From assembly GCA_013540605.1 (NCBI GenBank), contig JABVCK010000010.1, positions 1-60,923 on the forward strand: a stretch of DNA of 60,923 nucleotides. Reading direction: 5' to 3'. Shown here in pieces: positions 7,240-52,501 of this stretch (positions within the stretch are counted from its first letter, which is position 1; each line of letters opens with the position of its first letter). Position numbers and translations under genes: made by a program. A model generated the notes under the pieces. It saw only the letters and a program-made list of their open reading frames with translations. It had not been told where the DNA came from and did not search any database. The DNA is from Bacillota bacterium (GTDB lineage: Bacteria > Bacillota > Clostridia > Ch29).

Positions 7240-7895
7240 ATCAATGCACCAGGTCTAAACCCTTCGCCTTTCAGGCGAAAAGCTTTGAGCATTGACAAGG
7301 CAGGAACTGTCATATAAGATAGCGCTGAGGTGAGAGAGGTGAAGGAATACAGAAAAAACAGTCATGCAGTATACGATATAAAGTACCATGTAATCTGGAC
7401 AACAAAGTACAGATATAAAGTACTTAAAGGGGAAATAGCCAAAAGGGCAAGAGACCTCATAATACAAGGGTGCGAGGCAAGAAACATAGTGATAATTAAA
7501 GGTAGTGTGGGAAAAGACCATATACATATACTAATATCATGCCCACCTACTATAGCCCCAGCGAAGATAATGCAGTATTTAAAAGGGAGATCATCAAGGA
7601 TGCTACAGGATGATTTTCCAGAACTTAAGAAAAGATACTGGGGGCAGCATTTGTGGTCAAGAGGATATTTTTGTGCGACAGTAGGGAGCGTAACAGAAGA
7701 GATGATAAAGCAGTATATAGAGAATCAGGGAAGGCAGGAGAATAATGATTTTAAAATTGAAGAATGATTTCAGTCGTAAATTTAAGCTTGCATTTAGCAG
7801 ATGGTCTTTAAGTGGGCTTAAGCCTAAAAAGCGAGTTTCACTCGCACAAAATTTATTTTGTAACCCACCTGCTTCAGCAGGTGGTAGTTTAGTAT
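7240..7895 (+). mobile_element. IS200-type insertion sequence (IS200/IS605 family, tnpA only)
   Basis: A single Y1 transposase gene is flanked by subterminal hairpins rather than inverted repeats, as expected for IS200. On the left, TTCGCCT and AGGCGAA form a hairpin at 7263-7279; on the right, GCGAG/CTCGC (about 7830-7844) and CCACCTG/CAGGTGG (about 7864-7883) form two. The sequence GTTTAGTAT occurs at both outer edges. The exact ends are approximate. It abuts the truncated recQ. Confidence 0.75.
7339..7767 (+). CDS. tnpA: IS200/IS605 family Y1 transposase TnpA
   Basis: A small HUH-type single-strand transposase of about 142 residues. It has the conserved VYDIKYHVIWTTKYR N-terminus, the HUH motif HIHILIS for metal binding, and a C-terminal helix with the catalytic tyrosine in QYIENQ. 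GTG 7339 has GAGGTGAG at good distance; GTG 7330 upstream would overlap the binding site. The length is normal and no key residue is missing, so the enzyme may be active. There is no tnpB/IscB partner. Confidence 0.88.
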   Translation: MKEYRKNSHAVYDIKYHVIWTTKYRYKVLKGEIAKRARDLIIQGCEARNIVIIKGSVGKDHIHILISCPPTIAPAKIMQYLKGRSSRMLQDDFPELKKRYWGQHLWSRGYFCATVGSVTEEMIKQYIENQGRQENNDFKIEE

Positions 7896-25818: not shown

Positions 25819-25850
25819 GTTGAAGGGGGAAGCTACTGTTGCCAGGATAT

Positions 25851-26023
25851 AGTTATCAGTTACCAGATGACAGATCACAGACGTCAGGGCAAGGCTAGAG
25901 GGTAAAAACCCAAAGGCCTCAACCGAAAGTCTGCGAAATGTGATCTATGATCTATGATCTGCGAACTGCGATCTGCCAACTGTGATCTATCACCTGCGAA
26001 CTACGAACTACCAACTACGAACT
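25851..26023 (+). repeat. Heptamer-built dispersed repeat, copy A
   Basis: The left arm runs in 7-bp steps (AGTTATC AGTTACC AGATGAC AGATCAC AGACGTC), then a core AGGGCAAGGCTAGAGGGTAAAAACCCAAAGG-like, then a right arm of degenerate 7-bp units (TGATCTR, CGAACTR, CCAACTR). Right-arm units are reverse complements of left-arm units. The copy fills the gap between the aldolase terminator and the RBS of the GGR-type gene. Copies B and C are at 32101-32246 and 51029-51166. Confidence 0.88.
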
Positions 26024-26040
26024 GAAAGGAATGCATATAT

Positions 26041-32075: not shown

Positions 32076-32262
32076 GGGGACATTCCGCAGTTCAGTTTTT
32101 AGTTACCAGTTCCCAGTTGCCAGATGACAGACGTCAGAGCAAAGCTATAGGGTAAAAACCCAAAGGCATAACTCGGATACCTGTGATCTGTGATCTACGA
32201 ACTACCAACTACGAACTACGAACTACCAACTACCAACTACGAACTAGCAGCGGTGTGTCCCC
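32076..32262 (+). repeat. Dispersed palindrome GGGGACA-type, copy 2, split by heptamer repeat copy B
   Basis: The left half GGGGACATTCCGCAG (32076-32090) and right half GCAGCGGTGTGTCCCC (32247-32262) match the two ends of copies 1 and 4. Between them lies heptamer repeat B, so one mobile-like sequence is nested in the other. Confidence 0.75.
32101..32246 (+). repeat. Heptamer-built dispersed repeat, copy B
   Basis: Same architecture as copy A: AGTTACC AGTTCCC AGTTGCC AGATGAC AGACGTC, core with AGGGTAAAAACCCAAAGGC, then TGATCTG and a long run of CGAACTA/CCAACTA units. The core has changes (CAGAGCAAAGC, GGCATAACTC) that break the short stem possible in copy C. Confidence 0.88.
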
Positions 32263-32296
32263 TGACATTAATATGGTTTCACGGAGGGATTTTTTG

Positions 32297-33613
32297 ATGG
32301 GAAATGATAGATATGATGTTGTGGTGGTGGGCGCCGGGCCTGCCGGCAGTTCTGCAGCACTGCTCATGGCAAATAACAACCTTTCTGTAGCTATGCTGGA
32401 AAGGGGACCTTATCCCGGGAGCAAGAATATGAGCGGTGGCACCATTGCAAGCATGCCCTTCCAGGAGATTTTACCCGAATACTGGAATATAGATGGGATT
32501 CCCCTGGAAAGAAAGATTGTATCAGACGAGTTGTGGATGCTGGATAACGATTCAGCCGTAAAGATGGGGTTTAGCGGCAAGAAGTTCGGTTATGCCCCCT
32601 ATAATAAGTTCTCGATACTCCGGTACAAGTTTGACAAATGGTATGCAGATCAGGCTGTAGCCGCAGGAGCTAAGCTGTTCAACAACTGTCTTGCAATTGA
32701 CCTTGTGTACCATAAAACGGGACTGCTGTCAAAAAAGGTGGATGGGGTGGTTCTGGAGGGCGGAGATATAATTCATGCTGACCTCGTGGTGCTGGCAGAG
32801 GGTTCATCTGCCGCACTGACCCAAAAAATCGGTCTGAGGCAAAGGCTCAACCCTGCTGATATGACGCTTTATGTTAAAGAGGTCCTAGAGTTACCCTCGG
32901 GTAAAATAGAAGAGAGATTTAGTCTGGAAGGGGATGAGGGAGCGGTTATCGGAATGGTGGGATATCCCACTTCCCCGGCCATAGGCAAGGGTGGTATTTG
33001 GACCAATAAGGACTCCCTTTCCATAGTAGTGGGAGCATACTTGAATCAAATCGTAAATAAGGGGCTTAACCCACTGCAGTTGATGGAAAGGTTTAAAAGT
33101 CATCCCATGATAAAGAAGCTAATCGAAGGGGCAAAGCCGATAAAATATCTGGCGCATACCATACCAAAGGGTGGGTTCAAAAAAATCCCGACCCTAGTGG
33201 ATGACGGAGTGATTGTTGTCGGAGACGCAGCCGAGATGATAAGCGGTCGGAGGGGTATAGACCTTGCTATGATAACCGGTAAATTTGCTGCAGAAGCTGC
33301 CGCTCAGGCCTGCGCCCTGGACGATTACAGCAGGGAAACCCTTTCTTCCTATGTGAAAAGAATAAAGGGCTCGTTCTTCTATGAGAACATGAGAAAGGGC
33401 AAGAATGTAGAGGAGTATTTTAATACATACCAGGACTCGGATTTTCTAATAACCAAAGCGATGAACGACCTTGCCTTCAAATATTTCAAGCAGGACCTGG
33501 AAAACAACAAAATCAGGCTAAGAAAGATGATAGAGGAACTGAAGAACATGCAGCCGCTGCAAAAGACCGGCAAGGACTTATTGTATGGATTGCAAAACTG
33601 GGAGGTATGGTGA
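32297..33613 (+). CDS. fixC: FixC-like electron-transfer flavoprotein:quinone oxidoreductase
   Basis: About 438 residues of the ETF-QO/FixC family: FAD fold VVVVGAGPAGSSAALLMA, PGSKNMSGGTIA, GVIVVGDAAEMISGRRGIDLAMITGKFAAEAAAQA. FixC takes electrons from ETF (FixAB) and passes them to quinone, together with FixX. FixA/FixB are not in the window. ATG 32297 follows ACGGAGGGA by 6-7 nt; an upstream in-frame extension is only translated repeat B and is rejected. It overlaps fixX by one base. Confidence 0.9.
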   Translation: MGNDRYDVVVVGAGPAGSSAALLMANNNLSVAMLERGPYPGSKNMSGGTIASMPFQEILPEYWNIDGIPLERKIVSDELWMLDNDSAVKMGFSGKKFGYAPYNKFSILRYKFDKWYADQAVAAGAKLFNNCLAIDLVYHKTGLLSKKVDGVVLEGGDIIHADLVVLAEGSSAALTQKIGLRQRLNPADMTLYVKEVLELPSGKIEERFSLEGDEGAVIGMVGYPTSPAIGKGGIWTNKDSLSIVVGAYLNQIVNKGLNPLQLMERFKSHPMIKKLIEGAKPIKYLAHTIPKGGFKKIPTLVDDGVIVVGDAAEMISGRRGIDLAMITGKFAAEAAAQACALDDYSRETLSSYVKRIKGSFFYENMRKGKNVEEYFNTYQDSDFLITKAMNDLAFKYFKQDLENNKIRLRKMIEELKNMQPLQKTGKDLLYGLQNWEVW

Positions 33614-43190: not shown

Positions 43191-43221
43191 GGGGACACAC
43201 CTTTTGCAAAGGAATGTCCCC
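43191..43221 (+). repeat. Dispersed palindrome GGGGACA-type, copy 3
   Basis: GGGGACA-CA-CCTTT-TGC-AAAGG-AA-TGTCCCC is a compact hairpin with an inner CCTTT/AAAGG stem different from the CCGC/GCGG inner stem of other copies. Seven bases from the ndh2 stop, it may also work as the ndh2 terminator (T run on each side). Confidence 0.8.
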
Positions 43222-46514: not shown

Positions 46515-46562
46515 GGGGACACACCGCTGCTATGCAGGTATTCCTTGCCGCGGAATGTCCCC
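46515..46562 (-). repeat. Dispersed palindrome GGGGACA-type, copy 4
   Basis: In reverse orientation it reads GGGGACATTCCGCGGCAAGG ... GCAGCGGTGTGTCCCC and aligns along its whole length with copy 1 at 21732-21779. It lies 18 bp after the pplA stop. Confidence 0.85.
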
Positions 46563-51025: not shown

Positions 51026-51028
51026 TTC

Positions 51029-51166
51029 AGTTACCAGTTATCAGATGCCAGATGACAGACGTCAGGGCAAGGCTATAGGGTAAAAACCCAAAGGCCTGAC
51101 CCGGACGCCTGTGATCTGCGAACTGCGATCTGCCAACTGCAAACTACGAACTACGAACTACCAACC
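51029..51166 (+). repeat. Heptamer-built dispersed repeat, copy C
   Basis: AGTTACC AGTTATC AGATGCC AGATGAC AGACGTC, core GTCAGGGCAAGGC...GGCCTGAC in which GTCAGG/CCTGAC and GGGT/ACCC can pair, then TGATCTG CGAACTG CGATCTG CCAACTG and CGAACTA units. It overlaps the last codons of the convergent alaX gene and supplies its stop codon. Confidence 0.88.
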
Positions 51167-52359
51167 AGCACCTTCGCTAGTGCCTCAATAGTTTCGTCAA
51201 TTACAATCTGGGCTTTTTCAGGTGTTTCTACGCCGCCCTGCACAACGGCGCTGCTCCCGCCGCCTTTTCCGCCTGCCAGGGTCATGGTTTCCTTGAAGAC
51301 AGGCCTCAGGTCTATGGGAACATCCGGCGAGCGGCTGATGATTAACTGCGCTTTTACGTTGGATGTGCACAGCAATGCGATACATCCGCCGTGTTCCGTA
51401 ATCTTGGATGCCAGCAGCTTGATTTCATCAAAGGGTTTTTTATAGAACATGAACCGGACGATTTTATAGGGTCCGATTTCCCGGGCATCACGCACCATCG
51501 CTGCTGCTTCCAGTGAGTAATACTGTTCCCGCAATTCCTCAACGGCCTTGGAAAGGCACTTGTTCTCGGCTGCAATTCTTTCTACTGCCCCAAGAGCTTC
51601 ATGGTCTCTTACCGATAGAAGCGACGAGATCTTATTAATGCTTGTATTTTTATCCCGGAAATCCCGCAGCGCGCGCTTGCCGCAAACAAACTCCAATCTG
51701 AGGCCATCCTTGTTTTTCTCCCATTTCCGTATTTTGATTATTCCTACGCTGCCTGTTCCGGCTGGATGAGTGCCTCCACACGGGCAAAAATCAAAGCCGT
51801 CAATTTCCACAATACGGATATCCTCAGTGACAGACGGAGGTTTTCTCAACGGAATTCCGGGCAGGTCTTCCCAGCTTACAATATAAGTCTTTACTGCAAG
51901 GCTGCGGAAAACAATCTCATTGGCCATGTCCTCCGCCCGGTAGATAGTTTCTTCCGGCAAGTCAGGTCTGTTAAGGTCAATATAGACATATTGGGATCCC
52001 AGATGGAACCCTACCGTATCTGCATCGGCCAATTTTTCAAAGCAAGATGACAGGATGTGCTGGCCCAGATGCTGCTGCATGTGGTCAAAGCGCCTTTCCC
52101 AGTCGATTTTTCCGGTGACACGCTCCACCTGTATGGGCTGCGACAGTATGTGGACAATCGTACCGTTCTCTTCAACGACATCGATGACCGGTGAGTCATC
52201 AAGCCAGCCGGTATCGTTGGGCTGACCTCCACCCGTAGGATAAAAGGCCGTCCGGTCGAGGACAACCTCATACCCCCTGGCGGTCTTTTCCCGGCTCAAG
52301 ACGCGGGCTTCGAAAATGTTTTCATAAGGGTTGTACAGGAATAGTCTACCTTCATTCAA
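51151..52359 (-). CDS. alaX: Alanyl-tRNA editing protein AlaX-L with DHHA1 domain
   Basis: About 402 residues. Freestanding editing factor that clears Ser or Gly from tRNA-Ala. N-terminal part FYPTGGGQPNDTG, zinc sites HMQQHLGQHILS and FCPCGGTHPAGTGSVG, then a coiled region and a C-terminal DHHA1 domain ending GGKGGGSSAVVQGGV. This matches the long AlaX type. TTG 52359 is best supported (AAGAGGTG at 6 nt); GTG 52395 upstream has none. The last residues (GSS-stop) are encoded by heptamer repeat C, so the natural C-terminus may have been slightly altered. Confidence 0.9.
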   Translation of the reverse strand: MNEGRLFLYNPYENIFEARVLSREKTARGYEVVLDRTAFYPTGGGQPNDTGWLDDSPVIDVVEENGTIVHILSQPIQVERVTGKIDWERRFDHMQQHLGQHILSSCFEKLADADTVGFHLGSQYVYIDLNRPDLPEETIYRAEDMANEIVFRSLAVKTYIVSWEDLPGIPLRKPPSVTEDIRIVEIDGFDFCPCGGTHPAGTGSVGIIKIRKWEKNKDGLRLEFVCGKRALRDFRDKNTSINKISSLLSVRDHEALGAVERIAAENKCLSKAVEELREQYYSLEAAAMVRDAREIGPYKIVRFMFYKKPFDEIKLLASKITEHGGCIALLCTSNVKAQLIISRSPDVPIDLRPVFKETMTLAGGKGGGSSAVVQGGVETPEKAQIVIDETIEALAKVLVGSS

Positions 52360-52501
52360 CAAAAACACCTCTTCATCATTTGATAAGCAAAACACAAAGC
52401 CGTGGTTCCATTAGTAGTTTACCAGTATTTTTTAGTAAGATACAAGACTTAAATATGGCAACTGGGATTCAGTTGACATAATATATATTGGAGGTGATTG
52501 G

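Follow-up and report, generated by a model that had tools for sequence, protein, structure and literature searches.

The window, by which we mean the whole stretch of 60,923 bases that was analysed, contains three plus-strand copies of a repeat built from degenerate heptamers, with element lengths of 138-182 bases. Copy 1 (25843-26024; 86.2 bits with the covariance model R1) comprises a 5′ arm of seven units (25843-25891), a core at approximately 25878-25936 and a 3′ arm of 12 units (25941-26024). Copy 2 (32093-32246; 98.9 bits with R1) has a 5′ arm of seven units (32093-32141), a core at approximately 32128-32182 and a 3′ arm of ten units (32177-32246). Copy 3 (51028-51165; 102.5 bits with R1) has a 5′ arm of six units (51028-51069), a core at approximately 51056-51111 and a 3′ arm of eight units (51105-51165); R1 covers the core and innermost heptamers of this copy (51047-51125, plus strand). 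All three had been reported by an earlier, sequence-only reading, and their extents became slightly wider than first stated when set by heptamer phase. A scan of the entire window for at least four consecutive YAGNNNN or NNNNCTR units returned six arrays, namely the three left and three right arms and no others, compared to one array in total across 20 first-order Markov shuffles. The sequence AGGGTAAAAACCCAAAGGC is exact in all three copies and is found at six genome places without mismatch, or at 22 places with up to three mismatches versus six for the backwards control.

No homologue of the gene that follows copy 1 was found in the relatives at E 1e-20. The 3′ arm of copy 2 is an open frame that extends the N-terminus of an ETF-QO-like gene from a GTG (32183-33613; named by eye), and a 3′ arm elsewhere (L055:1-1515) likewise extends that of a methionyl-tRNA synthetase, also named by eye, from a GTG. 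Since these 3′ arms are open reading frames, the automatic start calls at both places may be wrong. Copy 3 lies between two convergent genes, one ATC_hydrolase-like and the other alanyl/threonyl-tRNA-editing-like (Pfam), and gives the latter, a minus-strand gene at 51151-52395, its stop codon and last residues. The window also holds an IS200-type Y1 transposase (7330-7767), one of four equal-scoring copies in the genome, and REP-like GGGGACAYWCC ... TGTCCCC repeats at 43191-43221, 46515-46562, 21732 and 32076-32262. The last of these are palindromic ends that enclose copy 2 at the foot of its hairpin, with GGGGACATTCC at 32076 and GGTGTGTCCCC at 32252.

The earlier reading had taken the three copies for a dispersed repeat family, and the genome of origin (G000; 3.35 Mb) contains far more of them. 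A 90-nt element query gave 43 BLAST matches in this genome, and a search with a covariance model of the core, as that reading had suggested, yielded 110 rows that merge to 81 non-redundant sites; the model was built from 29 copies, which match by construction. Seventy-four of the 81 sites were read, the remaining seven, all among the weakest rows, being left out. Identity across the 29 aligned copies has a median of 77% and a maximum of 94%, so the family is old. No Rfam family reached its gathering score on the element; across the window the scan returned a single tRNA above threshold, and relaxed thresholds, applied to copy 3, returned just eukaryotic miRNA models far below the cut-off. Neither of the outcomes that the earlier reading had named as refuting it, a genome holding these three copies alone or a match to an existing Rfam entry, was observed. 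A riboswitch or other known RNA was rejected on this basis.

On either DNA strand, the element reads 5′ (YAGNTNN)n - centre - (NNANCTR)n 3′; it is an imperfect palindrome whose arms face inwards. Among arm pairs no more than 200 bp apart in the genome of origin, a set chosen by core matches, the 5′ arm preceded the 3′ arm (LR) in 56 and followed it (RL) in none; 19 LL and 23 RR pairs in the same count represent interrupted arms. An unselected 400-kb sample contained ten clusters, again without an RL case. One LR cluster in this sample passed a strict unit filter, which drops opposite-arm units such as the CAGTGNN seen in coreless hairpins, and most of the other clusters were judged by eye to be coreless hairpins. 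The centre itself is not uniform. At least four unlike core forms, grouped by eye, were recognized, namely A (CAGACGTCAGGGCAAGGCTATAGGGTAAAAACCCAAAGGCCTAACCC), B (CAGGGAAGTGCTTATGGGAAAAACCTATAAGCCTTACCC), C (CAGAATGAAAACTTCAGAGACCTACCC) and D (CAGGCTTCAGCGAAGTCCTAGGG...), in addition to the hairpins that have no core. The earlier proposal of a fixed, selected centre is not supported, and the existence of several unlike cores and of coreless hairpins leaves the conservation of core A explained by descent.

The family is dispersed, predominantly intergenic, and represented by occupied as well as empty sites. According to crude ORF calls, 70 of the 74 copies lie between ORFs, three lie inside an ORF and one at a contig edge. 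Fifty of the intergenic copies are flanked by co-directional genes (27 on the coding strand, 23 on the opposite strand), 12 by convergent and eight by divergent genes. The comparison of occupied and empty sites, which the sequence-only reading had named as a check, was informative at two loci within the family of six genomes formed by G000 and its relatives G001-G005. The gene pair flanking copy 3 is element-free in syntenic G001, G002 and G005, a comparison that leaves out G003 because its locus (L149) ends before the junction. The same junction carries a REP-like repeat in G002 and another insert in G005. At the fumarase alpha/beta junction, the element is located at the same base in contig C11 of G000 and in G004, which belongs to another genus, and the site is empty in a G000 paralogue, G002 and G003. 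Here the stop codon TAG comes from the element. No target-site duplication was seen at the two resolved loci, where the relatives are strongly diverged outside genes, nor was there a terminal consensus, and the outer ends vary between element copies.

The two arms use different units, their units duplicate locally, and their lengths differ at an orthologous site. Units were counted in the first 50 listed copies, oriented by core, with those of the 3′ side reverse-complemented. Characteristic of the 5′ side are CAGATGA (43:0, 5′:3′), CAGTTAC (25:0), CAGTTGC (23:1) and CAGTTAT (20:0), and of the 3′ side CAGATCA (9:59), TAGTTCG (4:58), CAGATCG (2:43), TAGTTGG (3:34) and CAGTTCA (0:34). Thus, YAG and, for the most part, T5 are common to both arms, and positions 6-7 give nearly disjoint units. 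The earlier description of heptamer arms in two opposing orientations was accurate, and its claim that the right arm mirrors the left applies to positions 1-5 (YAG and largely T5) but not to positions 6-7, so that in the majority of its 7-nt steps the hairpin is mismatched at the latter. Arms contain 2-18 (5′) and 3-21 (3′) units, with a rank correlation of 0.37 between the sides. Identical neighbouring units made up 24 of 240 pairs in 5′ arms (10.0%, versus 4.8% +/-1.1 in within-array shuffles) and 58 of 391 in 3′ arms (14.8% versus 9.8% +/-1.1). This excess above shuffle level in both arms supports the replication slippage suggested by the sequence-only reading. The orthologous fumarase-site copies of G000 C11 and G004, with cores of types B and A, differ strongly in unit number. 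Co-evolution of the arms, as expected from selection on arm pairing in each copy, was rejected as not significant: the pairing of native arms was not significantly stronger than that of arms exchanged among copies (44 copies, four settings, P 0.06-0.18). The separate vocabularies and the lack of per-copy arm covariation indicate that units are copied within their own arm, and nothing points to copying from one arm to the other.

Beyond the genome of origin the element is rare. The family-level search found two places in G004, two in G005 and one weak match in G003, and the covariance model returned no element in G001 or G002. Strong core matches at E<=1e-6 were present in three of 391 genomes of the class, searched under strict filters with 12 candidates scored per genome. 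In a set of 84,980 named genomes, which may leave out the genome of origin, an exact core pattern matched two contigs, both from the metagenome-assembled genome JAENYD01, the same sequence as G004. No match to the element was found among phages and plasmids, and the exact core pattern was absent from viral contigs, seven of which carried TAGTTGG arrays matching the bare heptamer pattern with no core. With two mismatches allowed, the bare pattern occurred in six of 398 genomes of the phylum. One of these, G478 from another class, gave 98 matches compared to none for the control. Its arrays (L198-L211) are often found in pairs, without a conserved centre or order. A core search in five phylum genomes with the bare pattern gave rows only in G478, all weak (best E 8e-4); of nine such rows, four were inspected, two being heptamers without a core and two partial.

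G478 bears on the possibility that slippage alone produces such elements where they stand, with no movement, their apparent kinship coming from a favoured unit. Over 235 kb this distant genome has abundant TAGTTCR and CAGCTRT arrays in no preferred order (LR 16, RL 15) and with loops unlike each other, and both the local duplication of units and the existence of coreless hairpins agree with an origin of this kind. However, a 50-nt core is common to dozens of unrelated sites in the genome of origin, the LR order is strict (56:0) and orthologous sites are empty. We therefore consider slippage alone unlikely as a general account, and it is already refuted for the core-bearing copies; coreless arrays may have arisen in this way.

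The copies have clear hairpin potential. Across the 74 copies, the matched stretch folds with a mean z of -3.5 (54 below -2), slightly favoured by the use of a structured model to find the matches, versus a mean of -0.5 for the flanks; 47 of the 74 have their better fold on the minus strand, which we do not take as a sign of function. Copy 2 as single-stranded DNA reaches a fold z of only -1.9. A transcribed, cis-acting RNA hairpin selected for mRNA stability, translation control or riboregulation would be compatible with the stability of copy 3 (-52.4 kcal/mol; z -7.0 on the plus and -5.6 on the minus strand), with the position of copy 1 immediately 5′ of a ribosome-binding site, and with the core, where 9 of 25 named pairs changed on both sides compared to 5.0 +/-1.4 in shuffles (reached in 4 of 500) and six in the best slid control. 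This core covariation lends modest support to a maintained hairpin; RNAalifold recovered just 11 pairs, with almost no covariation term. Such an RNA is nevertheless quite improbable, considering that orientation to genes is unbiased (27 versus 23), that convergent and divergent sites occur, that cores are of several unlike kinds or missing, that the arms do not covary, and that neither an Rfam match nor, at copy 3, a match resembling a terminator or promoter was found. A strand-specific RNA was rejected because of the unbiased orientation. Least credible of all is a platform of inverted 7-bp sites recognized by a host protein, for nucleoid organisation or attC-like folded-strand recombination, since the strict inward order and arm-specific units that would suit it are accompanied by highly variable unit numbers (2-18 and 3-21 per arm).

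The motif GGGGACAYWCC is itself abundant in the genome of origin, with 313 matches versus ten for the backwards control, and exact 11-mers of this REP are enriched near the 74 copies (60 versus 4.2 expected from genome density), an enrichment due in part to the intergenic habit common to both repeats. The exact GGGGACA-type motif is present in 25 of the 74 copy excerpts and missing from most. Exact motifs occur on both sides in palindromic order in nine copies and in reverse order in none; with up to one mismatch, GGGGACA-type ends flank 18 copies, compared to two for the reversed arrangement. A second REP, of the CCGTCCCC/GGGGACGG type, occupies the hairpin tip in two of the 74 copies (L029, at G000:C35:384257-384385, and G000:C19:113755-113842), with a third site noted by eye at L213:10877-11048, and the CCGTCCCC type also flanks a RAYT-like gene in L103. 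REPs at the foot and tip of hairpins are as expected if folded-back DNA is their landing place. Y1 transposase genes are present in all six family genomes, at 20 loci in total. Since none of the 20 carries a heptamer triplet array, we identified no mover, and a RAYT in this role was rejected.

The explanation we favour, and hold to be rather probable, is an old MITE/REP-like repeat family, dispersed and non-coding, in which each member is an imperfect hairpin and slippage alters the arms by 7 nt at a time. Bacterial MITEs are small, non-coding, dispersed inverted repeats with occupied and empty sites. The present element resembles them in each of these respects (cf. PMC4853749). In contrast to MITEs, terminal repeats are not common to most copies, no duplication was seen at two loci, and no autonomous parent was found among the Y1 transposases searched. 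REPs, described as 20-40 bp long (PMC3733652), and REPINs are likewise dispersed intergenic palindromes, and a Y1 transposase is encoded in every family genome; however, at 138-182 bases the element is far longer, and unlike RAYT-associated REPs it flanks none of the 20 Y1 loci in six genomes. In the MITE/REP-like scenario, the ancestor would have been an inverted repeat of inward-facing YAGNTNN heptamers around a core tipped by GGG-AAAA-CCC. This repeat may have spread to intergenic sites, mainly in this lineage, probably as a non-autonomous element for which a single-strand (Y1/IS200-type) transposase would be the natural candidate mover. Copies would afterwards have been immobile and diverged in place, while each arm lengthened or shortened by 7 nt through local slippage that copies own-arm units only. 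The family could be neutral in essence, the supply of stop codons being one of its side effects.

Heptamer repeats have precedents, and STRR repeats occur in the RNase P RNA of cyanobacteria. In architecture, the nearest known counterpart is the P6b stem-loop of the Nostocalean trnL group I intron, with degenerate heptanucleotide repeats of Class I (TDNGATT) and Class II (NNTGAGT) (PMC4476775, PMC3488679). These cyanobacterial hairpins also have two degenerate-heptamer arms folding around a central loop, two repeat classes and a length that varies by whole 7-nt units; they differ in sitting inside the intron of one tRNA gene, whereas the present element forms dozens of stand-alone intergenic copies, and in having a shorter core. 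Among known units the closest is TAACTGA, which MacGregor 2015 (PMC4679880) presents, for Beggiatoaceae, Cyanobacteria and Bacteroidetes, as one exact unit in 2-6 direct intergenic copies without a hairpin. On the opposite strand it reads TCAGTTA, a phase of the 5′-arm unit CAGTTAT, but units of the present element are degenerate and stand in inverted arms around a core. Among the three copies in the window, TDNGATT and NNTGAGT (also TGAGT) had no match and TAACTGA formed no doublet, occurring as one single unit at 25856. With the motif tests for both systems negative, we liken the element to both and file it under neither. A literature search, with most subscription papers outside its reach, found no description of it. 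Heptamer hairpins in cyanobacteria and TAACTGA arrays in Beggiatoaceae are already known; the stand-alone heptamer-hairpin family represents a novel variation on them. It is undescribed for this bacterial group, and its members look like old, mostly immobile, small mobile-type repeats.

A broader and decidedly speculative idea, to which we give little chance, is that arrays of the YAGNTNN type are built in unrelated bacteria by one general 7-nt process that has gone unrecognised. It might embrace this bacterium's lineage, G478 and, judging by sequence likeness, the TAACTGA arrays known from Beggiatoaceae and cyanobacteria. Within this bacterium's lineage it would act on a folded strand, which would then keep two arm vocabularies and a permanent mismatch at every 7-nt step.

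The MITE/REP-like family, with its dozens of copies from one ancestor, individual arm lengths and an orthologous pair in two genera, provides a countable system for the growth of 7-nt repeats. Copying within each arm bears on how long imperfect palindromes survive in bacterial chromosomes. Moreover, as seen at the fumarase and copy 3 junctions, such repeats can supply stop codons and gene ends.
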